Part shown: one piece after another, positions 1,163-12,852 of the stretch | Layout of the letters: every line of letters begins with the position of its first letter | How positions within the stretch are numbered: the first letter of the stretch is position 1 | Assembly: GCF_900113955.1 (NCBI RefSeq) | Contig: NZ_FORH01000001.1 | Location: 860,395 to 924,394, forward strand | Direction of reading: 5' to 3' | Origin: Celeribacter neptunius | Lineage (GTDB): Bacteria; Pseudomonadota; Alphaproteobacteria; Rhodobacterales; Rhodobacteraceae | Length of the DNA stretch: 64,000 nucleotides | Translations under genes and position numbers: made by a program | Notes under the pieces: generated by a model | The model's input: only the letters and a program-made list of their open reading frames with translations | The model's database searches: none | What the model was told of the DNA's origin: nothing

Positions 1163-2188
1163 ATGACAGAGACTTCCCGTTTCGGCGCGCCTTCGCGCCG
1201 GGCCTTCCTGAAAACCAGCCTCGCCAGCGCGGCGCTCGCCAGCGCCCTGCCGGGCATCGCCTTTGCCCAGGGCAAGGTGCTGAAAGTGGCCGGGATCTAC
1301 ACCGTGCCGGTGGAACAGCAATGGGTGAGCCGCATCCATATCGCCGCCGTCGCGGCCCAGACCCGCGGCGACATCGAATATACCTATTCCGAGAACACCG
1401 CCAACACCGACTATCCGCGCGTGATGCGTGAATATGCCGAGCAGGGCTATGACATGATCGTCGGCGAGATTTTCGGTGTCGAGCAGGAAGCCCGCGAGGT
1501 GGCCGCCGATTACCCGGATGTCGCCTTCCTCATGGGCTCGTCCTTCAAGGAAGATCCGTCGATCCCGAACCTCTCGGTGTTCGACAACTATATTCAGGAC
1601 GCGTCCTACCTGTCGGGCATCATCGCCGGCGCCATGTCGTCCTCCGGCAATATCGGCATGGTCGGCGGCTTCCCGATCCCCGAGGTGAACCGTCTGATGC
1701 ATGCCTTCATGGCGGGCGCCAAGGAAATGAACCCGGACATGAAATTCCAGGTCTCCTTCATCGGTTCCTGGTTCGATCCGCCCAAGGCCAAGGAAACCGC
1801 CTATGCGATGATCGAGAACGGTGCGGACATGCTCTATGCCGAACGGTTCGGTGTCTCGGATGCGGCAAAGGAAAAGGGCATTCTCGCCATCGGCAACGTG
1901 ATCGACACCCAGTCCGACTACCCGGACACGGTCGTGGCCTCCGCGATCTGGCATTTCGAGCCGACGATGGATGCGGCGATTGCCAAGGTCAAAGCCGGCA
2001 CATTCACCGCCGAGGATTACGGTCTCTATTCCTTCATGAAAGAGGGCGGTTGCTCGCTCGCGCCTTACGGCAATTTCGACGGCAAGATCCCGCAAGACGC
2101 GCTCGATCTCGTTGAGACCCGCTCCGCGGCGATCAAGGACGGGACCTTCGCGGTCGAGATCAACGACGAAGAGCCGAAGTCCTCGTAA
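1163..2188 (+). CDS. BMP family (PnrA-like) ABC transporter substrate-binding protein, Tat-exported
   Basis: 341 aa periplasmic binding protein of the basic membrane protein family, which binds nucleosides or related bases. The N-terminus carries a twin-arginine signal, SRRAFLKT at residues 11-18, a hydrophobic stretch and a probable cleavage after AFA (about residue 35), so it is probably exported folded. The mature part starts with KVAGIYTVPV and contains the family segments SENTANTDYPRVMREYAEQGYD and VGGFPIPEVNRLMHAF-type strands. RBS GGAGAG lies 6-7 nt before the ATG. It abuts the ATPase gene with no spacer and heads an operon that ends in a CodA-family deaminase, which suggests a pyrimidine base or nucleoside ligand. 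Confidence 0.88.
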   Translation: MTETSRFGAPSRRAFLKTSLASAALASALPGIAFAQGKVLKVAGIYTVPVEQQWVSRIHIAAVAAQTRGDIEYTYSENTANTDYPRVMREYAEQGYDMIVGEIFGVEQEAREVAADYPDVAFLMGSSFKEDPSIPNLSVFDNYIQDASYLSGIIAGAMSSSGNIGMVGGFPIPEVNRLMHAFMAGAKEMNPDMKFQVSFIGSWFDPPKAKETAYAMIENGADMLYAERFGVSDAAKEKGILAIGNVIDTQSDYPDTVVASAIWHFEPTMDAAIAKVKAGTFTAEDYGLYSFMKEGGCSLAPYGNFDGKIPQDALDLVETRSAAIKDGTFAVEINDEEPKSS

Positions 2189-3715
2189 ATGGCGACTGAA
2201 AAGAGGGGCGCGGGGCAGGGGGAACCCGTCCTGCGCCTTCTAGGCATCACAAAGCGGTTCGGGCAGGTCACGGCCAATGAGAATGTCAGCTTCTCGCTCA
2301 ACGAGGGCGAGGTGATCGCGCTTTTGGGCGAAAACGGCGCGGGCAAGACCACGCTGATGAACATTCTCTTTGGCCAATACACCGCCGATGAGGGCACGGT
2401 CGAGGCGTTCGGCCGGCCGCTCGCTCCGGGCAATCCCCGGGCCGCGCTCGATGCCGGTGTCGGCATGGTGCATCAGCATTTCACCCTCGCCGGCAATCTC
2501 ACCGTCTGGGAAAACATCGTGCTGGGCACACAGCGCCTGTCGGAGCGCAGCCTCAGCCCGCGCGCCGCCAAGGACAAGATCCGGGCGCTGTCCGGCAAGT
2601 TTCACCTGATCGTCGACCCGGATGCCAAGGTCGGCAGCCTCACGGTGGGCGAGCGCCAGCGGGTCGAGATCCTCAAGGCGCTCTATCGCGATGCCCGCGT
2701 GCTCATTCTCGACGAACCCACCGCCGTGTTGACGCCGCAGGAGACCGACGCGCTGTTCGCCACGCTGCGCGAAGCCATCGCGCTCGGCCTCTCGATCGTC
2801 TTCATCTCGCACAAGCTGCATGAGGTGATGGATATTTCCCATCGGGTGCTGGTGTTGCGCCATGGCAAGCTGGTCGCCGAACGCACCACATCCGAGACCT
2901 CGCGCGAGGAACTCGCCACGCTGATGGTCGGCGGCGAGGTGCGCGCGCCGGAGTTCCCAGCGATGCCGGCGGGACCGGCGCTTCTGTCGCTGAAATCCAT
3001 CTTTACCGACAAGCTGTTCGATCTCGATCTGGAGCTGTGTGCGGGCCAGATCACCGGGCTGGCGGGCGTCTCCGGCAACGGCCAGGGGGCGCTTTCCGAT
3101 CTGATTTCCGGCATGTCCACGCCGCTCTCGGGCGAGATGACCGTCGCAGGCCAGACCCCGAAGAGCTGGTCGCCGCGTGCCGCCATCGCCATGGGGATCG
3201 GGCGCATCCCCGAGGACCGGCACAAGACCGGCACGATCGCCGACTTTGACCTGACCGAGAATGCCATTCTGGAAACCTATCCCGAAGGGTTCTCGCGCAG
3301 GGGCTGGATGGATTGGGCCAGGGCCCACGCCCATACCGAACACCTGATCGAGACCTATGATGTGCGCTGCCCGGGGCCGGAGGCGCGCATTCGCCTCTTG
3401 TCCGGTGGCAATATGCAGAAACTCATTCTGGGCCGCGTGCTCGAAGAGAGCCCCAAGATCATCCTCGCCAACCAACCGGTGCGCGGATTGGACATCGGTG
3501 CGGTGAATTATGTTCATTCCCGTCTTGCCGCCGCGCGCGAAGCCGGGGCGGCCGTGCTGTTGATCTCCGAGGATCTCGATGAGATCATGAAACTCTCCGA
3601 CCGCATCCATGTGATCTCCGAGGGCCGTCTCAGCCCGGCGTTCGGACGTGGCGAGATGTCGGCCGCCGAGCTTGGCAAATGGATGGCCGGCGAAGGATTT
3701 GCCCATGCCGTTTGA
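2189..3715 (+). CDS. ABC transporter ATPase, duplicated nucleoside/sugar type
   Basis: 508 aa with two nucleotide-binding domains in tandem, as in RbsA and the BMP-system ATPases. Domain 1: Walker A GENGAGKTT near residue 47, signature LTVGERQR, Walker B LILDEPTAVLTPQE. Domain 2: the Walker A is degenerate (GVSGNGQGAL), the signature is LLSGGNMQK, and the Walker B region reads LANQPVRGLD, with Gln replacing the catalytic Glu; this asymmetry is usual in the nucleoside branch. The ATG at 2189 follows directly on the TAA of the binding protein, and the 3' end overlaps the first permease. It powers the importer encoded by 1163-5710. Confidence 0.92.
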   Translation: MATEKRGAGQGEPVLRLLGITKRFGQVTANENVSFSLNEGEVIALLGENGAGKTTLMNILFGQYTADEGTVEAFGRPLAPGNPRAALDAGVGMVHQHFTLAGNLTVWENIVLGTQRLSERSLSPRAAKDKIRALSGKFHLIVDPDAKVGSLTVGERQRVEILKALYRDARVLILDEPTAVLTPQETDALFATLREAIALGLSIVFISHKLHEVMDISHRVLVLRHGKLVAERTTSETSREELATLMVGGEVRAPEFPAMPAGPALLSLKSIFTDKLFDLDLELCAGQITGLAGVSGNGQGALSDLISGMSTPLSGEMTVAGQTPKSWSPRAAIAMGIGRIPEDRHKTGTIADFDLTENAILETYPEGFSRRGWMDWARAHAHTEHLIETYDVRCPGPEARIRLLSGGNMQKLILGRVLEESPKIILANQPVRGLDIGAVNYVHSRLAAAREAGAAVLLISEDLDEIMKLSDRIHVISEGRLSPAFGRGEMSAAELGKWMAGEGFAHAV

Positions 3716-4766
3716 GATGCGCCTCGAACCGATCGCCGAGCCAAGCCTCGCGCGGCGCTTGACGCCGCCGGCGCTGGCCATTGTCGCCTCTTTCGTCGTC
3801 GCAGCCCTGCTGGCGCTGATCGCTGGCGGCAATCCCTTTGCCGTGTTCGGGCTTATTTTCAAGGGCGCATTCGGATCGAAATTTGCGCTGCTCGAGACAT
3901 TGAATCGCGCCACGCCGCTGATCTTCACCGGGCTTGCGGTCTCGGTGGCCTTTCGCGCCAAGCTCTGGAACATCGGTGCCGAGGCGCAATTCTACGCCGG
4001 CGCGGTGATGACCGTGGTTCTGGGCACTGGCATGCTGACCCTGCCGCCCATGCTGATGCTGCCGCTGCTTGCGGTGACCGCAGCATTGGCGGGCGCGCTG
4101 GTGCTGTTGATCCCGGCGCTTCTGAAAACCCGCTTCGGGGTCGACGAGGTGGTCACCACGCTCCTGTTCAATTTCATCTTCCTGCTGTTCGTCTCCTACC
4201 TGCTCGAGGGGCCTCTGAAGGACCCGATGGGCATGGGCTGGCCGAAATCCGCGCGGCTCATCCCCGAGGCGCGCCTGCCGCGCATCGTCGACGGGCTCCG
4301 GCTGCATTGGGGCTTTGCCCTGGCGCTGATTTCGGCGCTGGCGCTCTGGGTGATCGACCGCAAGACCACATTGGGCTTCGAGATGCGCGCCGTCGGACAA
4401 AATGCCGAGGCCGCGCGGTTTGCCGGGATCCCGGTCACCAAGGTGATCCTGAAAACCGCGCTGCTCTCGGGCGGTCTGGCCGCGCTCGGCGGGTATTCTG
4501 AAGTGGCGGGTCTCAAAGGGTCTCTGACGCAGGATATCAGCCCGGGCTTTGGCTACACCGGGATTGTCGTTGCCATGCTGGCGCTTCTGAACCCGCTGGG
4601 CGTGGTGCTCGCCGCCTTCTTTGTCGCCGCCATCTTCGTCGGTGCCGACAGCATGAGCCGTGCCATCGGCGTGCCGAGTTACCTGGCGGATATCATGCTC
4701 GCCTCGGCGCTGTTGCTGATGGTGCTGGCGATCCTCTTGACGAAATTCCGGGTGAGGCGCGGCTGA
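3705..4766 (+). CDS. ABC transporter permease, BMP/nucleoside type (first)
   Basis: 353 aa polytopic inner-membrane protein of the BPD_transp_2 family (YufP/NupP-like). The start MPFEMRLEP (3705) has a GAAGGA site and overlaps the ATPase stop by 11 nt; a frame extending to 3648 is only read-back into the ATPase. Roughly eight to ten hydrophobic helices can be seen, with FVVAALLALIAGGNPF and LIFTGLAVSVAF early and the cytoplasmic EAARFAGI coupling segment near the middle. Together with the next gene it should form the transmembrane channel. The stop overlaps the next ATG (TGATG). Confidence 0.9.
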   Translation: MPFEMRLEPIAEPSLARRLTPPALAIVASFVVAALLALIAGGNPFAVFGLIFKGAFGSKFALLETLNRATPLIFTGLAVSVAFRAKLWNIGAEAQFYAGAVMTVVLGTGMLTLPPMLMLPLLAVTAALAGALVLLIPALLKTRFGVDEVVTTLLFNFIFLLFVSYLLEGPLKDPMGMGWPKSARLIPEARLPRIVDGLRLHWGFALALISALALWVIDRKTTLGFEMRAVGQNAEAARFAGIPVTKVILKTALLSGGLAALGGYSEVAGLKGSLTQDISPGFGYTGIVVAMLALLNPLGVVLAAFFVAAIFVGADSMSRAIGVPSYLADIMLASALLLMVLAILLTKFRVRRG

Positions 4767-5710
4767 TGGATCTTCTCGACATTCTCTTCTCCGCCGCGTT
4801 CTGGGCCGCCACGGTGCGCATCGCCAGCCCGCTAATCTTCGCCACCATGGGGGAACTGATCTGCGAACGCGCCGGCGTGCTCAATCTCGGGATCGAGGGC
4901 ATCATGGTGGCGGGGGCTTTTGCCGGCTGGATTTCGGTCTGGGCCGGGCTGCCGCTCTGGGGCGGGGTCGGTGTGGCGCTTTTGACCGGCATGGCCTTTG
5001 GCCTGTTGCATTCGATCCTCTCCGTGCCCTTTGGCCTGTCGCAACATGTGGTCGGCGTCGGCATCACGCTGTTCGCCACCTCGACCACGTTCTATACCTA
5101 TCGTGTCGTGCTGCCCGAGGTCTCCTCGCCGCCGAAAATCACCGCGTTTCAGCCGGTTGAGATCCCGTTTCTCGCCGATATTCCATTGATCGGCCCGGCG
5201 CTGTTCCACCAGACGCCCTTGACCTATGCCGCCTTTCTGCTCGTGGCGCTCACCGCGTTCGTGCTGTACCGCACGCCCCTGGGCCTGGCGGTTCGGGCCG
5301 CCGGCGAAAGCCCGTCGGCCGTCTCCGCTCAGGGCCTGTCGGTGACCGCGATCCGCATGGGGGCGGTGATCGTCGGCAGCGGCTTCATGGCCGTCGGCGG
5401 CGCCTTTCTCACCATGTCGGCCTTTGATTCGTTCTTTTTCGACATGGTCGGCGGGCGTGGCTGGATCTGTATCGCACTGGTGGTCTTCGGCGCCTGGAAG
5501 CCCGGCAAGGCGCTTTTGGGGGCGATCCTGTTTGCCGCGTTCGATGCGCTGCAAATCCGTCTGCAACAGACCGGGATCGGCGCCATCGTGCCCTATCAGG
5601 TCTTCTTGATGTTGCCCTATATCCTGTCCATTCTGGCGCTCGTGCTGATGTCGCGCCGCGCCGAAGTGCCCGCGGCCCTGATGGTGCCGTTCAACAAGGG
5701 AGAGAGATGA
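4766..5710 (+). CDS. ABC transporter permease, BMP/nucleoside type (second)
   Basis: 314 aa, BPD_transp_2 family (YufQ/NupQ-like), partner of the previous permease. Diagnostic segments: GELICERAGVLNLGIEGIM near the N-terminus and GRGWICIALVVFGAWKPG near residue 240, both typical of the second nucleoside permease. About nine membrane helices. The start overlaps the upstream stop by one base and the stop overlaps the deaminase start in ATGA, so translational coupling runs through the operon from importer to enzyme. Confidence 0.9.
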   Translation: MDLLDILFSAAFWAATVRIASPLIFATMGELICERAGVLNLGIEGIMVAGAFAGWISVWAGLPLWGGVGVALLTGMAFGLLHSILSVPFGLSQHVVGVGITLFATSTTFYTYRVVLPEVSSPPKITAFQPVEIPFLADIPLIGPALFHQTPLTYAAFLLVALTAFVLYRTPLGLAVRAAGESPSAVSAQGLSVTAIRMGAVIVGSGFMAVGGAFLTMSAFDSFFFDMVGGRGWICIALVVFGAWKPGKALLGAILFAAFDALQIRLQQTGIGAIVPYQVFLMLPYILSILALVLMSRRAEVPAALMVPFNKGER

Positions 5711-6984
5711 TGTTCGATCTACTGGTCAGGGGCGGCACGCTGCCCGATGGCTCCGTCATGGACATCGCCATCCGAGGCGACAAGATCGCCGAGGTGGCGC
5801 CGAAGATCGAGGCCGAGGCCCGCGAGGTGATCGAGGCCAGTGGCGATCTGGTCTCGCCGCCCTTTGTCGATCCGCATTTCCACATGGACGCGACGCTGAG
5901 CTACGGCCTGCCGCGGGTGAACGCCTCCGGCACGCTGCTCGAGGGGATTTCGCTCTGGGGCGAGCTGCGCGAGATCGCCAGTGTCGAGGAGATGGTCGAG
6001 CGGGCTTTGCAATATTGCGACTGGGCCGCCGCCACCGGGCTTCTGGCCATTCGCAGCCATGTCGACACCACGCCGGATCATCTCAATACCGTCACGGCGA
6101 TGCTCGAGGTCAAAGAGAAGGTCAAGGATTACATTGACTTGCAACTTGTGGCCTTTCCGCAGGACGGGCTTTACCGCGCGCCGAACGGGCGCGAGAACCT
6201 GATCCGCGCGCTCGACATGGGCGTCGAGGTGGTCGGCGGCATCCCGCATTTCGAACGCACGATGCAGGACGGCGCCGAGAGCCTGCGCGATCTTTGTCAG
6301 ATCGCCGCCACCCGGGGCCTGATGGTCGATATCCATTGCGACGAGACCGACGATCCGATGAGCCGGCATATCGAAACGCTGGCCTATGAGACCACACGGC
6401 TTGGCTTGCAGGGCAGGGTGGTCGGCTCTCACCTGACATCCATGCATTCGATGGACAATTACTATGTCTCGAAACTCCTGCCGCTGATCAGGGAGGCCGG
6501 GATTTCCGCCATCCCCAACCCACTGATCAATATCATGCTGCAGGGCCGTCACGACACATTCCCGAAACGCCGCGGCCTCACCCGGGTCAAGGAAATGCAG
6601 GCCATCGGCATTCCGGTCGGCTGGGGACAGGATTGCGTTCTCGACCCGTGGTATTCGCTTGGCACGGCGGACATGCTCGACGTCGCCTTCATGGGGCTGC
6701 ATGTGGCGCAGATGAGCCATCCCGACGAAATGGCGCGGTGCTTTAACATGGTGACCGAGACCAATGCCGAGATCATCGGCCTCGAAGACTACGGCATCCG
6801 GAAAGGCGCGATGGCCTCGCTCGTCGTTCTCGACGCGGCCACCCCCGTCGATGCGCTCCGCCTGCGTCCAGCGCGGCTCGCGGTGGTGGCGAAGGGCAGA
6901 GTGATCGCCCGGGCGCCCCGCGGCGATGCCAGACTCAGCCTTCCGGGCCGTCCCGAGACTGTCCGGCGGCGTGCGCCGCGCTGA
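5707..6984 (+). CDS. codA: CodA-family amidohydrolase, probable 5-methylcytosine/cytosine deaminase
   Basis: 425 aa amidohydrolase. All metal and catalytic residues known in E. coli CodA are found at a constant offset of -4: His57 and His59 (HFHMD), Gln152 (FPQDG), His210 and Glu213 (HCDE), His242 (SHLTSMHS), Asp309 (GQDC). The next residue, Asp314 in CodA, is Cys310 here. CodA homologues lacking that Asp, from Klebsiella and Rhodobacter, are known 5-methylcytosine deaminases, making thymine and ammonia. Hence cytosine or 5-methylcytosine deamination is the best call. Last gene of the importer operon (ATGA overlap); the importer may bring in the base. The Arg/Pro-rich last 20 residues look unconserved. 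Confidence 0.85.
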   Translation: MMFDLLVRGGTLPDGSVMDIAIRGDKIAEVAPKIEAEAREVIEASGDLVSPPFVDPHFHMDATLSYGLPRVNASGTLLEGISLWGELREIASVEEMVERALQYCDWAAATGLLAIRSHVDTTPDHLNTVTAMLEVKEKVKDYIDLQLVAFPQDGLYRAPNGRENLIRALDMGVEVVGGIPHFERTMQDGAESLRDLCQIAATRGLMVDIHCDETDDPMSRHIETLAYETTRLGLQGRVVGSHLTSMHSMDNYYVSKLLPLIREAGISAIPNPLINIMLQGRHDTFPKRRGLTRVKEMQAIGIPVGWGQDCVLDPWYSLGTADMLDVAFMGLHVAQMSHPDEMARCFNMVTETNAEIIGLEDYGIRKGAMASLVVLDAATPVDALRLRPARLAVVAKGRVIARAPRGDARLSLPGRPETVRRRAPR

Positions 6985-7046: not shown

Positions 7047-7065
7047 CGCCCCGTTTAACGGGGCG
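7047..7065 (+). terminator. Hairpin after the deaminase operon
   Basis: CGCCCCG-TTTAA-CGGGGCG hairpin 63 bp after the codA stop. There is no T-run behind it, so it would be a weak or Rho-aided terminator. Confidence 0.4.
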
Positions 7066-7286: not shown

Positions 7287-7868
7287 ATGGAATTTGATGT
7301 CGGAGCGCGGCTGAAAGAGGTCAGGAAGGCCAAGGGCCTGTCGCAGCGGGTTGTTGCCGAACGCTCCGGCGTGACCAATGGCATGATCTCTCTCATCGAG
7401 AGCAACAAATCCAGCCCGTCGGTGAGCTCGCTGAAAAAGATCCTGACCGTGCTCGACATCGCCCTGGCGGATTTCTTCGAAAGCGAAACGCCGGAGCCCA
7501 AGCAGTTCGTGTTCCGCCCCGCGGACTTTGTCGAGATCAATCCGCAACAGATTTTCAGCAGTGACGACGAGCCGGCGCTTGAGGCCTTATCCATTAAAAA
7601 GGTTGGGAATTCTTCGACAAACAGCCTGTTGCTGCTCTACGAGGTCTATGAGGCCGGCGCCGACACCGGTGCCGAGGCCCTGTCGCATGAGGGCGAAGAG
7701 GGCGGCTTTGTCATTGAGGGAAAACTTCTGCTCGAGGTCGATGGCGAGACCCAGGTGCTCAAGGCCGGGGATGCCTATCTGTTCGACAGCACCAAGCCGC
7801 ACCGCTTCCGCAATGTCGAGAAAGAGCGCTGTGTGATCGTCAACGCCAGCACGCCACCGACATTCTGA
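7287..7868 (+). CDS. XRE-family regulator with C-terminal cupin
   Basis: 193 aa. Residues about 8-62 form an HTH_3/XRE DNA-binding domain (VRKAKGLSQRVVAERSGV, MISLIESNKSSPSVSSLKKIL). Residues about 110-190 form a cupin_2 ligand domain (SHEGEEGGFVIEGKLLLEV, GDAYLFDSTKPHRFRN). This is the architecture of PuuR, the putrescine-utilisation repressor. A paralogue lies at 56250-56831 with the same ASTPPxF ending. It sits between the deaminase operon and a polyamine-type importer and probably controls one of them in response to an amine; ligand unproven. No strong SD precedes the ATG. Confidence 0.85.
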   Translation: MEFDVGARLKEVRKAKGLSQRVVAERSGVTNGMISLIESNKSSPSVSSLKKILTVLDIALADFFESETPEPKQFVFRPADFVEINPQQIFSSDDEPALEALSIKKVGNSSTNSLLLLYEVYEAGADTGAEALSHEGEEGGFVIEGKLLLEVDGETQVLKAGDAYLFDSTKPHRFRNVEKERCVIVNASTPPTF

Positions 7869-8276
7869 TCCGCGCCCATCGCAGCCCGGCCCCTGTCGCG
7901 GCACCCGCCGCAATGTCATGGGGCAGGGCTTGGCCGGGGCAGGGATTCGCTGCGCGCATAACCCGCGCGCGGGGCTGGTCCTGGCGGCGCGATCCCGTCC
8001 TCTCCGGTACGGTCTGGATCGGCTTTCAGCCCGGAAATCACCTGTCTATCCTTGCACAGGAAGGGTGCGTTTTTTCAGGATGCCCAATTTTTGCGCCGAA
8101 TCCCCGCGCGACGCAAGAATTTTCAATATATTTAACGCCTGTATGAAAATTTTTGAAAAAACACTTTATTTTGAAAAAACACCGGCTAACCTGACGGCAA
8201 TTGAAGCGAGCAGCGGAGCCGGCGTTAAACATGCTCGCAATGGCTGTCAAACAAGCGCACCGGCGCGCATACAGGG
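7869..8276. promoter_or_regulatory. Intergenic region before polyamine importer operon
   Basis: 408 bp without a supported gene. The 3' half becomes AT-rich and ends in two exact 14-bp direct repeats (8151-8182). It probably holds the promoter of the 8277-12852 operon. Reading frames of 77 and 120 codons cross it but lack an RBS and any recognisable product. Confidence 0.5.
8151..8182. repeat. Two direct repeats TTTTGAAAAAACAC, candidate operator pair
   Basis: Exact 14-bp copies at 8151-8164 and 8169-8182, spaced 18 bp start to start, about 95 bp before the ATPase start. The TTTTGAAAAAA core also occurs in the palindrome before the XRE-cupin gene (7094-7104). Confidence 0.55.
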
Positions 8277-9386
8277 GTGACCGTGGGGAAACATAGGAAA
8301 GCAAATGCGTTCGTCGAGTTCGAACGCGTGCAGAAGAGCTACGACGGTAAAACGCTCGTCGTGAAAGATCTCAACCTCTCGATCGGCAGGGGCGAGTTTC
8401 TCACCATGCTCGGGCCGTCGGGCTCCGGCAAGACCACCTGCCTGATGATGCTGGCGGGGTTCGAAACCGCCACCCACGGGGAAATCCTCCTCGATGGCAT
8501 GCCGATCAACAACATCCCGCCCTACAAGCGCGGCATCGGCATGGTGTTCCAGAACTACGCCCTGTTCCCGCATATGACCATTGCCGAGAACCTCGCCTTT
8601 CCCCTGGAAGTCCGCAAAATGGGCAAATCCGAGCGTGAGGAAAAGGTCAAACGCGCTCTCGACATGGTGCAGATGGGACAATTCGGCGGCCGTCGCCCGG
8701 CGCAGCTTTCCGGGGGTCAGCAACAGCGGATCGCACTCGCCCGTGCTCTGGTGTTCGAACCCGAGCTCGTGTTGATGGACGAACCCCTGGGCGCGCTCGA
8801 CAAGCAGCTGCGCGAGCACATGCAATTCGAGATCACCAATCTGGCGCATCAGCTGGGCATCACCACGGTCTATGTCACCCATGACCAGACCGAAGCGCTC
8901 ACCATGTCCGACCGGGTCGCCGTGTTCAACGACGGCCGCATTCAACAGCTCGCCCCGCCGGCCTCGCTCTATGAAGAGCCGGAGAACAGCTTCGTGGCGC
9001 AATTCATCGGCGAAAACAACACGCTCGAAGGCGTGGTGAAGGAGCTGAGCGGCGAGAAGGCCCTCGTCGAACTGGACGATGGCGAGCTGATCGACTGCAA
9101 GCCAGTCAATGTCACATCGGTCGGTCAGCGCACCCGCGTGTCGATCCGTCCGGAGCGGGTCGAGGCCAACCCGGACCGCCTGCATCCCGATGCCCATACG
9201 CTCAAGGCCGAAGTGCTCGAGTTCATCTATATGGGCGATGTGTTCCGTACCCGCTTGCGGGTTGCCGGACGAGATGATTTCATCATGAAGAGCCGCAACG
9301 CCCCGGATCAGGTTCGCCTGAAACCCGGCGAGCATATCAAGATCGGCTGGATGCCGTCCGATTGCCGGGCGCTGGACGCGCTGTAA
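8277..9386 (+). CDS. ABC transporter ATPase, spermidine/putrescine (PotA) type
   Basis: 369 aa. Walker A GPSGSGKTT at about 46-54, Q-loop, signature LSGGQQQRIALARAL, Walker B LVLMDEPLGALDKQ, switch His in YVTHDQTEAL, then a C-terminal TOBE-type domain. This is the CUT1/PotA pattern. No ATG is available: the frame opens with GTG 8277, and GTG 8283 is preceded by AGGGG at better spacing, so the true start may be two codons later. First gene of an ATPase - binding protein - permease - permease operon for a polyamine-like cation; two direct repeats lie upstream. Confidence 0.9.
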   Translation: MTVGKHRKANAFVEFERVQKSYDGKTLVVKDLNLSIGRGEFLTMLGPSGSGKTTCLMMLAGFETATHGEILLDGMPINNIPPYKRGIGMVFQNYALFPHMTIAENLAFPLEVRKMGKSEREEKVKRALDMVQMGQFGGRRPAQLSGGQQQRIALARALVFEPELVLMDEPLGALDKQLREHMQFEITNLAHQLGITTVYVTHDQTEALTMSDRVAVFNDGRIQQLAPPASLYEEPENSFVAQFIGENNTLEGVVKELSGEKALVELDDGELIDCKPVNVTSVGQRTRVSIRPERVEANPDRLHPDAHTLKAEVLEFIYMGDVFRTRLRVAGRDDFIMKSRNAPDQVRLKPGEHIKIGWMPSDCRALDAL

Positions 9387-9472
9387 TACGGCGCCGATGA
9401 CGCCAGAGAACACCGAAATCTCGGCCCTGAGCCGGGTAAAATCCATAAAAAAACTCAACATGGAGAAGAGAC

Positions 9473-10570
9473 TTGACTCATAAGACACTTGCAGCGCTGC
9501 TTGCGGCCACTGCTCTGAGCACCCCGGCGATTGCCGCCGATATGACCGTCGTATCCTGGGGCGGTGCCTACCAGACCAGCCAGCAGAAAGCCTATGCAGA
9601 CCCCTATATGGAGATGCACCCGGATGTCAGCATCATCTGGGACGAGAGCTCCAATGACGCCACCGCCAAACTGCGCGCCATGGACGAAGCCGGCAACGTG
9701 ACCTGGGACGTGGTCGACGTCGAGGGCCCGGACGCCGTGCGTCTGTGCGACGAAGGTCTGGCGATGGAAATCGACGTCGACGCCCAGCTGGCGCCGGGCG
9801 ATGACGGTTCCACTGCCACCGCCGACTTCGGCGACTCGCTGATCAGCGAATGTTTCATCCCGCAGATCGTGTTCTCCACCACCTTCGGCTACCGCACCGA
9901 TGTCGAAGCCTGGGGCGGCAACACCCCGTCCGATCTCTGCGCCGTGTTCGATCTCGACACCTTCCCGGGCAAACGCGCCCTGCAGAAATCGCCGAAGAAG
10001 AACCTCGAATGGGCGCTGCTCTGTGACGGCGTCGAGAAAGACGATCTTTACGACGTGCTGGAATCCGATGGCGGCATCGAGCGCGCTCTGGCGAAGCTCG
10101 ACACCATCAAGGACGAAACCGTCTGGTGGTCCGCCGGCGCCGAAACCCCGCAGCTTCTCGCCGATGGCGAGGTTGTGATCGGCTCCACCTACAACGGTCG
10201 TCTGTTCTCGGTGATCGAAGAGCAGCACCAACCGGTCGCCATGCTCTGGGACTACCAGGTGTTCGATTTCGACGGCTGGATCATCCCGGCGAACCTGCCG
10301 GCCGAGCGTGAAGCCGCAGCGCTTGAGTTCGTGAAATTCGCCACCGACACCCAGCGTCTCGCCGATCAGGCCGCCTATATCTCCTACGGTCCGGCCCGCG
10401 CCTCGTCGCAGCCGCTCGTCGGCAAGCACGCCGAGCTCGGCATCGAAATGGCGCCGCATATGCCGACCAACCCGGAAAACGCCAAGCGTTACCTGGTCAA
10501 CAACCTCGATTGGTGGGCTGACAACCAGGACGACGCCGAAGCGAAATTCCAGGCCTGGCTTGTGAAATAA
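9473..10570 (+). CDS. Polyamine-type ABC substrate-binding protein (PotD/F-like)
   Basis: 365 aa with a Sec signal peptide (KTLAALLAATALS, cleavage after AIA near residue 21); the mature protein begins ADMTVVSWGGAYQ, typical of SBP_bac_8 polyamine-type proteins. Start is TTG 9473, preceded by GGAGAAGAG. Trp/Tyr/Asp-rich segments (VWWSAGAETPQLLADGEVVIG) are consistent with binding of a cationic amine; the ligand is unproven. Codon use is strongly biased to C-ending codons, as expected for an abundant binding protein. A terminator-like hairpin follows, which should keep binding-protein mRNA above that of the permeases. Confidence 0.88.
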   Translation: MTHKTLAALLAATALSTPAIAADMTVVSWGGAYQTSQQKAYADPYMEMHPDVSIIWDESSNDATAKLRAMDEAGNVTWDVVDVEGPDAVRLCDEGLAMEIDVDAQLAPGDDGSTATADFGDSLISECFIPQIVFSTTFGYRTDVEAWGGNTPSDLCAVFDLDTFPGKRALQKSPKKNLEWALLCDGVEKDDLYDVLESDGGIERALAKLDTIKDETVWWSAGAETPQLLADGEVVIGSTYNGRLFSVIEEQHQPVAMLWDYQVFDFDGWIIPANLPAEREAAALEFVKFATDTQRLADQAAYISYGPARASSQPLVGKHAELGIEMAPHMPTNPENAKRYLVNNLDWWADNQDDAEAKFQAWLVK

Positions 10571-10581
10571 ACCCTTGCGAG

Positions 10582-10609
10582 AGGGGCGGCGAAACGGTCG
10601 CCCCTTTCC
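10582..10609 (+). terminator. Intra-operon hairpin after binding protein
   Basis: AGGGGCGGC / GGTCGCCCCT stem with a short loop, followed by TTTCCTTT. It lies between binding protein and permease genes, so it is likely a partial terminator or 3' mRNA stabiliser. Confidence 0.6.
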
Positions 10610-10726
10610 TTTGATCCGCGCGGTCCCCGGTGACCGCGAGCGAGGATCGTATTCCTATTCAGTCTGCAAGATCGCGGCGTTTCCCGCCGCAGAGATCGAA
10701 CGCATATCCAAAGCAAAGGAAGTTGC

Positions 10727-12001
10727 ATGAGCGCGCCCATCGAAGAACCCGGGGAAGTTCTCGCCGCTGACGGAACCCCTCTCAAACGCTCTCTCGCGCG
10801 TGCGCTTCGCGTGCAGAAACTGCGGGCGTTGATGCTGATCGCGCCTTTGCTGATCTTCATTCTCGTGACCTTCATTCTCCCGGTTGCCGATATGCTCTAT
10901 CGCTCGGTCGAGAACCAGATCGTCTCCGAAACCCTGCCGAAAACCGTCGTCGCGCTGGAAAGCTGGGATGCGGATTCCGGAGAGGCGCCCGACGAGGCGG
11001 TGTTCGCAGCACTTGCCGCCGATCTCCAGATCGCCGCGGAGCAAAAGATCCATACCAAGCTCGGCACGCGTCTCAACTATGAGAACCCGGGCATGGCCTC
11101 GCTGTTCCGCAAATCCGGGCGTCAGGTCAAGAAGTGGGATCTCGAGACCGACGGGCCGTTCAAGGAACAATTCGTCGATGTCGATGAGGATTGGGCCGAC
11201 CCGGAAGTCTGGCAGACGATCAAGACCTATGCGCCGAAAATCACCGCCGGCTATTATCTCAATTCCGTGGACATGAAGCTCGGCGCCGACGGCGTGGAAG
11301 TGCGCCCGGAAAGCGAGAGGATCTACCTGACGCTGTTTGGCCGCACCCTGTTCATGTCCTTCGTCATCACCGCCAGCTGTATCGTTCTCGGCTATCCGGT
11401 GGCCTGGCTCCTGGCCAACCTGCCGATGAAGACCTCGAACCTGTTGATGATCCTCGTCCTGCTGCCGTTCTGGACCTCGCTTCTGGTGCGCACCTCGGCC
11501 TGGAAAATCCTGCTGCAACAACAGGGCGTGATCAACGATATCCTCGTGTGGATCGGACTTGTGGCCGATGACAACCGACTTGTGATGATCAACAACCAGC
11601 TTGGCACGATCATCGCCATGACCCATATCCTTCTGCCCTTCATGATCCTGCCGATGTACTCGGTCATGCAGTCGATCCAGCCGACCTATCTGCGCGCGGC
11701 CAAGAGCCTTGGCGCAACCAACTGGACGGCGTTCTGGCGGGTCTATTTCCCGCAATCGGTGCCGGGCATCGGCGCGGGCTCGATCCTCGTCTTCATCCTC
11801 GCCATCGGCTATTACATCACGCCGGCCTTGGTCGGGGGCACCTCCGGGACCTTCATCTCGAACCGTATCGCCTTCCATATCTCGATCTCGCTCAACTGGG
11901 GTCTGGCGGCGGCGCTCGGCGGCATCCTTCTCGCCGTGGTTCTGATTTTCTACTACGCCTATGACAAGATCGTCGGCATCGACAACGTGAAGCTGGGGTA
12001 A
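10727..12001 (+). CDS. ABC transporter permease, PotB type, with large periplasmic insertion
   Basis: 424 aa against about 280 for E. coli PotB. TM1 is at residues 35-55 (LMLIAPLLIFILVTFILPV). A hydrophilic stretch of about 145 residues (60-205) then precedes the conserved permease core, whose five helices begin with LFMSFVITASCIVLGYPVAWLL and include the EAA-like coupling loop LRAAKSLGATNWTAFWRVYFPQS. The extra segment should be periplasmic, facing the binding protein. RBS AAAGGAAG before ATG 10727. Longer PotB-like permeases of this sort occur in proteobacterial amine importers; the role of the insertion is unknown. Confidence 0.88.
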   Translation: MSAPIEEPGEVLAADGTPLKRSLARALRVQKLRALMLIAPLLIFILVTFILPVADMLYRSVENQIVSETLPKTVVALESWDADSGEAPDEAVFAALAADLQIAAEQKIHTKLGTRLNYENPGMASLFRKSGRQVKKWDLETDGPFKEQFVDVDEDWADPEVWQTIKTYAPKITAGYYLNSVDMKLGADGVEVRPESERIYLTLFGRTLFMSFVITASCIVLGYPVAWLLANLPMKTSNLLMILVLLPFWTSLLVRTSAWKILLQQQGVINDILVWIGLVADDNRLVMINNQLGTIIAMTHILLPFMILPMYSVMQSIQPTYLRAAKSLGATNWTAFWRVYFPQSVPGIGAGSILVFILAIGYYITPALVGGTSGTFISNRIAFHISISLNWGLAAALGGILLAVVLIFYYAYDKIVGIDNVKLG

Positions 12002-12006
12002 CAGAC

Positions 12007-12852
12007 ATGAGCCTTCCTTCTTACGCCACCACCGGTGAAAAAGCCTGGTACTACGGGTTCCGCGTCATTACCGGGTTGATCTTCTTCTTCCTGATCGCGC
12101 CGATCCTCGTGGTGATCCCTCTGAGCTTCAACGCCCAGGACTTCTTCACCTTCACCCCGGAGATGCTGCGTCTCGACCCGGAAGGGTATTCGCTCAAGCA
12201 CTATCGCGATTTCTTTTCCAACAGCGACTGGCAACATGCGATGGTGAACTCGCTGAAGATCGCACCGATGGCGACCGTCCTGTCGGTGAGCTTCGGCACG
12301 CTGGCCGCGATCGGGCTGAGCCAGCCGCATGTGCCGTTCCGCCGGGCGATCATGGCGATCCTGATCTCGCCGATGATCGTGCCGCTGATCATCTCCGCTG
12401 CCGGCATGTATTTCTTCTACAGCCGGATCGGTTTGCAGGGGACTTATATCGGTGTGGTTCTGGCCCATGCCGCGCTTGGCATTCCCTTTGTCATCATCAC
12501 AGTGACCGCGACGCTCGTCGGTTTCGACCAGTCGCTGACCCGTGCCGCCGCCAATATGGGCGCCAACCCGGTCACGACATTCTTCCGGGTGCAGATGCCG
12601 CTCATTCTGCCGGGGGTGATCTCCGGGGCGCTGTTTGCCTTCATCACCTCATTTGATGAGGTGATCGTGGTGCTCTTCGTCGGCTCAGCCGGCCAGAAGA
12701 CGCTGCCATGGCAGATGTTCATCGGGCTGCGCGAACAGATCAGCCCGACGATCCTCGCGGTCGCCACCATCCTCGTCGCCATCTCGATTGCGCTGCTGAC
12801 CACGGTCGAACTGCTGCGGCGCCGGTCCGAGAAGCTGCGCGGCATCGCCTGA
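12007..12852 (+). CDS. ABC transporter permease, PotC type
   Basis: 281 aa, BPD_transp_1 family with six predicted helices (GLIFFFLIAPILVVIPLSF first) and the coupling motif LTRAAANMGANPVTTFFRVQMPLI. It starts 5 bp after the PotB-type stop and completes the importer 8277-12852. A strong terminator follows at 12902. Confidence 0.9.
   Translation: MSLPSYATTGEKAWYYGFRVITGLIFFFLIAPILVVIPLSFNAQDFFTFTPEMLRLDPEGYSLKHYRDFFSNSDWQHAMVNSLKIAPMATVLSVSFGTLAAIGLSQPHVPFRRAIMAILISPMIVPLIISAAGMYFFYSRIGLQGTYIGVVLAHAALGIPFVIITVTATLVGFDQSLTRAAANMGANPVTTFFRVQMPLILPGVISGALFAFITSFDEVIVVLFVGSAGQKTLPWQMFIGLREQISPTILAVATILVAISIALLTTVELLRRRSEKLRGIA

Follow-up and report, generated by a model that had tools for sequence, protein, structure and literature searches.

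The window, a 64,000-nucleotide stretch of the Celeribacter neptunius genome, carries a five-gene operon in which a BMP-family periplasmic binding protein, an ABC ATPase, two ABC permeases and a CodA-type deaminase follow one another in an order that is conserved (Table 1). The binding protein begins with MTETSRFGAPSRRAFLK, which holds a twin-arginine motif, and a loose version of this pattern was found in 65 of its 69 homologues from loci where importer and deaminase are linked (one of the four misses is cut by a contig end), in line with the Tat export first proposed for this protein. The ATPase scores 402 bits against NF047930, under the cut-off of 670 for that family. Permease 1 probably starts at the ATG at 3717 rather than at the first codon of its frame, as suggested by its own sequence and by locus L008, with homologues beginning with MRLEP. 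The shared ATGA at the junction of permease 2 and the deaminase agrees with the initial annotation, which had called the enzyme translationally coupled to its importer, and the offset is the same in 44 of the 69 linked loci. A putative hairpin downstream of the deaminase is a possible end of the operon; no T-run follows it in the sequence. Searches of the window detected no RNA family at gathering scores, and 21 matches to sigma-54 sites against 30.7 expected, none of them upstream of the operon.

The operon is enclosed by a polyamine-type cluster (positions 1-1133 on the minus strand and 7287-12852 on the plus strand, extending upstream in L158), with a class III aminotransferase, an FAD oxidase and an aldehyde dehydrogenase on one side and a PuuR-like regulator and a PotABC-like transporter on the other. 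The aminotransferase, named from 29% similarity to a S. medicae gene and from its own sequence, was considered as a sign of thymine breakdown through beta-aminoisobutyrate and rejected, since its company is this polyamine-type cluster.

Table 1. Features of the operon and of two further loci in the same genome. Positions are those of the window unless a locus (L) or a genome contig (G000 C9) is named.
Feature	Position	Strand	Basis
BMP-family periplasmic binding protein, twin-arginine motif SRRAFLK	1163..2188	+	PF02608, 133.5 bits
ABC ATPase, two nucleotide-binding domains	2189..3715	+	PF00005 in two stretches
ABC permease 1	3648..4766	+	PF02653, 138 bits
ABC permease 2	4766..5710	+	PF02653, 93.9 bits
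ATGA overlap of permease 2 stop and deaminase start	5707..5710	+	sequence
CodA-type deaminase, Cys-type	5707..6984	+	NF005748, 755.8 bits; active-site alignment
Codon TGC of Cys310 (CodA Asp314 position)	6634..6636	+	sequence, alignment
Short hairpin CGCCCCGTT-T-AACGGGGCG, 3' of deaminase	7047..7065	+	by eye from sequence
BMP importer followed by 8-oxoguanine deaminase, an importer-deaminase operon of the same design	L201 8349-14658		570.6 bits, cut-off 532
Second deaminase	L195 8772-10076 = G000 C9:60.8-62.1 kb		NF005759

A CodA-type active site with cysteine at the Asp314 position

The deaminase (425 amino acids) belongs to the cytosine deaminase family NF005748 (PRK07572), whose curated cut-off of 438 bits it exceeds; among proteins of solved structure it is most similar to E. 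coli CodA and to the Klebsiella enzyme 4R7W. Alignment with CodA from E. coli NC_000913, with residues in literature numbering, placed every aligned active-site residue at an offset of -4, pairing H61 with H57, H63 with H59, Q156 with Q152, H214 with H210, E217 with E213, H246 with H242, D313 with D309, D317 with D313 and W319 with W315. The metal-binding and catalytic residues (H61, H63, H214, E217, H246 and D313) are all kept, as is Gln156, which in CodA holds the 2-oxo group, and Asp314 is replaced by Cys310; this is the arrangement that had been read from the window sequence before any alignment. The absence of Asp314 is the mark of bacterial 5-methylcytosine deaminases, and the Klebsiella 5-methylcytosine deaminase (4R7W, 4R85, 4R88) has lost the same residue, with Ser at this position; the codA gene of Klebsiella NZ_OP378648 matches the 4R7W chain across its 412 residues. 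The window and Klebsiella enzymes are about 44% identical and fall in separate clades. According to PMC6186785, which cites Hitchcock 2014, removal of the Asp lets CodA act on 5-methylcytosine. Since Cys replaces an Asp that crowds C5, the window enzyme should accept this base, and 5-methylcytosine is, judged from the sequence, a plausible substrate.

To follow this position among relatives, we used three sources: the best 80 of at least 594 matches from one scan of named genomes, a set biased toward near relatives; 13 matches read from plasmid records, of which 372 gave a match, 6 of these 13 falling in the subfamily; and all 32 matches above 735 bits, the window included, in 299 genomes sampled evenly across the phylum. 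The resulting subfamily has 117 aligned members that are at least 59% identical to the window enzyme and include the best 80 of at least 594 named matches. Cys occupies the Asp314 column in 117/117 of this set, and Cys310 is thus no chance substitution; His57, His59, Gln152, His210, Glu213, His242 and Asp309 are likewise invariant across the same 117 sequences. Among 33 more distant relatives taken as an outgroup, the column holds Asp in 14, Ser in 18 and Asn in one. This outgroup consisted of every match scoring 420-484 bits in the 299-genome sample (25 sequences), one match of 295 bits and 7 additions from E. coli and plasmid records; weaker matches of the sample lay outside the reading, save the window genome's own paralogue. 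A single branch of a quick tree separates the Cys-type proteins from 14 outgroup rows (SH-aLRT 94).

A BMP importer beside Cys-type enzymes

The full importer, in fixed order, precedes the deaminase in 51 of the 80 named loci (the best 80 of at least 594; the binding protein of L040 is cut by a contig end), while 4 loci have a partial importer at contig ends and 25 lack all four genes on that strand, although for 5 of the latter the sequence upstream is shorter than 5 kb. Of the 32 sampled genomes with the deaminase, 13 have the full importer, 1 has a rearranged one, 2 have a partial one and 16 have none, and at one of these 16 loci, L133, a BMP match lies on the opposite strand at the locus edge; all six subfamily loci from plasmid records carry the full importer. 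Neighbours were then compared between enzyme types by tblastn within 8 kb, requiring an identity of at least 40-45% for importer genes and at least 28% for CodB, some flanks being shorter than 8 kb and locus L095 being excluded on account of a broken deaminase. In this comparison, 76 of the 117 Cys-type genes (the set that includes the best 80 of at least 594 named matches) had the BMP importer or its permeases nearby, versus 0/33 others, showing that the pairing is specific to the Cys type in this set. The other 41 of these 117 loci have no importer within 8 kb, for some of them because of a contig end, so the enzyme need not always have one at hand. A CodB homologue lies within 8 kb of 7/14 Asp-type and 14/18 Ser-type genes (together 21/32) and, by the same tblastn search, of none of the 117 Cys-type genes, again including the best 80 of at least 594; at the window operon no CodB (NCS1) adjoins the deaminase and the BMP ABC importer stands there instead.

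The linkage is clustered on the tree, where it takes 20 changes against 43.6 for shuffled labels; as this is still many changes, linkage must have been gained or lost repeatedly. Distances among BMP proteins and among deaminases are correlated (Spearman 0.80, n=69, 0/500 permutations as high), a correlation that shared species history produces equally well.

In two known systems, an importer also lies beside a deaminase of this family. E. coli codBA, the textbook importer-deaminase operon, shares with the window operon a base importer and a deaminase encoded in overlapping genes, but its importer is CodB and its enzyme keeps Asp314. The Klebsiella 5-methylcytosine deaminase (Kpn00632) shares the CodA family, the catalytic residues, the loss of Asp314 and a base permease nearby, a CodB-type permease encoded next but one; it differs in having Ser rather than Cys, and CodB (NCS1) with a PucR-type regulator instead of a BMP importer. 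An importer beside a 5-methylcytosine deaminase is therefore already known, and the initial claim that the linkage of importer and enzyme is new was too wide. Its narrower part holds, in that a BMP-type ABC importer replaces CodB beside Cys-type enzymes in the examined loci; as far as we searched, the new element is this pairing with an enzyme that has a distinct active-site residue. Among the papers listed by full-text searches on BMP importers with cytosine deaminase and on 5-methylcytosine deaminase, in a literature with few subscription journals, none was recognisable as dealing with this pairing. The 5-methylcytosine deaminases described by Hitchcock in 2014 reportedly include Rsp0341 of Rhodobacter sphaeroides, which is probably a direct orthologue of the window deaminase, and two named Rhodobacter records (L015, L016) carry a Cys-type enzyme with a full importer. 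NCgl0075, reportedly one of three enzymes in that study, is presumably the CodA of C. glutamicum.

The binding-protein pocket

The nearest solved relatives of the binding protein within the BMP family are 3S99 (E 5.8e-34) and AtzT (6PI5, E 1.5e-33). The AtzSTUVW system of Pseudomonas sp. ADP, to which AtzT belongs, shares with the window importer a Tat-signal BMP-type design, service to a heterocycle-degrading pathway and the stacking frame, but it has guanine-type polar contacts and works with enzymes of another pathway. As described in PMC6834077, AtzT stacks guanine between Tyr45 and Trp194 and holds it by Ser97, the Phe98 main chain, Glu165, Asn218 and Asn220; it binds guanine with an affinity of 0.11 uM but cytosine with only 800 uM and thymine with 620 uM, and 3S99 showed density for a purine. 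The BMP-type importer recognised at the outset thus has a binding protein of a base-binding kind.

We compared the pocket across 71 BMP proteins from deaminase loci, the window's included. The aromatic sandwich and Glu165 of AtzT are present: Trp194 corresponds to W203 (Trp in 66, Phe in 5), Phe98 to F104 (Phe in 65, Tyr in 6) and Glu165 to E174 (Glu in 71/71), and a Trp54 found in all 71 lies one column beside Tyr45, the Tyr45 column itself being Val in 63. The guanine contacts Ser97, Asn218 and Asn220 are not retained as a set in these 71 proteins. Ile, Val or Ala fills the Ser97 column in 68 of them and Ser is kept in 3; the Asn169 column is Leu throughout (71/71); and in place of Asn218 and Asn220 there are Tyr225 or Phe (70) and Glu227 (70), one protein being gapped there. 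How gaps should be placed around 218-220 is uncertain. Two acidic residues are conserved, Glu102 (70/71, one Asp) and Glu227 (70/70). Because the polar contacts differ from those of AtzT, the ligand is probably not guanine. We read the pocket as a base-type stacking site rebuilt for a different ring, and one that might suit a pyrimidine carrying a methyl group.

Candidate substrates and the fate of the product

From these features we infer, with slightly more confidence than doubt, that the operon scavenges a free pyrimidine base by import and deamination, accepting 5-methylcytosine and very likely cytosine. The Tat-exported BMP protein would catch a flat heterocycle in the periplasm and stack it between two aromatic rings, the ATPase and the two permeases would pass it to the cytoplasm, and the Cys-type enzyme, translated from the overlapping frame, would hydrolyse the exocyclic amine of the base, converting 5-methylcytosine into thymine and very likely also cytosine into uracil. 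Product and ammonia could then serve as carbon and nitrogen sources by way of the reductive pyrimidine pathway, whose genes lie at another place in the genome, and the operon may feed on bases of degraded DNA. 5-Methylcytosine is common in DNA and little is known of its uptake or recycling by bacteria, a question that a conserved operon including a dedicated binding protein would open to tests with two purified proteins. The operon would further add a pyrimidine-type base to the ligands of BMP importers, whereas AtzT and 3S99, the closest relatives of known ligand, bind purines or triazines.

The pathway genes lie at G000 C9:7.5-15.5 kb and encode PreA (716 bits) and dihydropyrimidinase (594 bits), both over their cut-offs, a carbamoylase-family amidase (690 bits to NF006769), a RutR-like regulator (227 bits, under cut-off) and an NAD(P)-binding protein called PreT-like from its position. 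When we surveyed 149 genomes of the window's family, one per genus and 58 of them with the deaminase, PreA was found in 128: 50/58 with the deaminase and 78/91 without. An association between the deaminase and pyrimidine catabolism was thus rejected, PreA being equally common with and without the enzyme. This independence, the poor binding of cytosine and thymine by AtzT, the changed pocket contacts, the location of the operon among polyamine-type rather than pyrimidine genes, and the 41 of 117 Cys-type loci with no importer within 8 kb, some of them at contig ends, all count against pyrimidine scavenging. The window genome encodes eight BMP proteins, and of its other BMP importers one adjoins the gene for XdhB, a xanthine dehydrogenase subunit, and another adjoins that for an 8-oxoguanine deaminase, so the coupling of a BMP importer to a base-degrading enzyme recurs in this genome.

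More specifically, the operon could be a dedicated 5-methylcytosine scavenging system of Alpha- and Betaproteobacteria, a proposal that we make tentatively and hold at less than even chance. Both halves of codBA would then have been replaced where the methyl group is blocked, the Asp of CodA by the Cys that does not vary and CodB by an ABC importer of the BMP type, whose base pocket is rebuilt and has turned hydrophobic at Ser97, a polar contact of AtzT. According to PMC9379551, Proteus vulgaris CodB does not bind methylcytosine, presumably owing to Phe33, which would make a change of importer sensible for a user of 5-methylcytosine. This argument is weak, because Phe33 is kept beside Ser-type enzymes and the Klebsiella 5-methylcytosine deaminase is encoded near such a CodB; tried as a covarying residue, Phe33 failed, with Phe in 21/21 CodB homologues beside Asp- and Ser-type neighbours alike.

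No sequence or genome feature in the genomes read separates 5-methylcytosine from cytosine or creatinine, of which plain cytosine is a strong rival and creatinine a weaker one. If the operon served ordinary cytosine scavenging, the Cys-type enzyme would be the lineage's cytosine deaminase, with 5-methylcytosine as a side activity. Its catalytic residues are those of CodA, no other protein of the window genome passes the NF005748 cut-off, and free cytosine is commoner than 5-methylcytosine. However, Cys at the Asp314 position in all 117 aligned sequences (including the best 80 of at least 594), the known effect of losing Asp314 in CodA, and the change of importer class along with the residue speak against this account, which we rate clearly below even chance. 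The genome also has a second 'cytosine deaminase', of PRK07583 type (NF005759, 596 bits, cut-off 403), which speaks against the cytosine account even though it is only 29% identical to the window enzyme and has Asn at the Asp314 position. This second deaminase is accompanied by transport genes, and about 3.5 kb downstream of it lies a gene that is creatininase-like by sequence, with no NCBIfam match at 1e-30.

Creatinine, imported and deaminated to N-methylhydantoin and ammonia, is an improbable substrate, and it nevertheless bears on how the active site is read: in our own drawing its N-methyl maps onto the C5-methyl of 5-methylcytosine and would need the same loss of Asp314, which is therefore no proof of 5-methylcytosine. 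PMC8864220 and PMC1578569 call C. glutamicum codA a creatinine deaminase and report it with a transporter, CrnT; this pair shares with the window operon a CodA-type deaminase reported with a transporter and used for nitrogen, and differs in its substrate. Sponge-microbiome papers assign COG0402 to the same conversion by annotation only (PMC6742649, PMC7848895), and Glu102 and Glu227 of the binding protein could hold an amidine. Against this, the stacking frame of the binding protein fits an aromatic base, no N-methylhydantoinase or carbamoylsarcosine amidase was seen beside the window operon, and the only Hydantoinase_B match of the genome is a 1231-aa HyuA-HyuB-type fusion. C. glutamicum strains without HyuB still use creatinine, according to the same sources, so that a missing pathway is compatible with creatinine use. 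Less probable still is that the true substrate is some other heterocycle with a C5 substituent or a 4-amino group, such as 5-hydroxymethylcytosine, isoguanine or a base of plant or xenobiotic origin. In favour of this are the unlikeness of the pocket to that of AtzT and, according to PMC13054789, amidohydrolase relatives that accept alkylated bases; the retained Gln156 speaks against it.

Several variants were seen at related loci. CodB homologues beside Ser-type enzymes (L089, L099, L165 and L210-L216 among them) have Phe at Trp38 in 10/14, and five of them (L089, L099, L213, L214, L216) also have Glu at Gln105, a cytosine contact of CodB; both Trp38 and Gln105 are kept in 7/7 CodB homologues beside Asp-type enzymes. 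An amidase-signature gene lies between binding protein and ATPase in L092 (3055-4341; 206 bits to NF005899, under cut-off) and in L130, L131, L159 and L095, its carriers being some rhizobial and other members, and may point to an additional substrate or to a subsequent reaction step. Dimethylglycine or sarcosine dehydrogenase-like genes occur near the deaminase at 23 loci and were considered as a sign of creatinine use, but we do not count them as linked in an operon; their distance is about 2-4 kb in the Mesorhizobium loci read, and they are close in L008 and L039. A DMT-type transporter is encoded directly downstream of the deaminase in 20 loci, such as L056 (11365-17436) and other Mesorhizobium loci, among them L048, which carries the BMP importer too; L056-type loci have a GntI-like kinase and a dimethylglycine dehydrogenase-like gene farther downstream, with family scores under the cut-offs.
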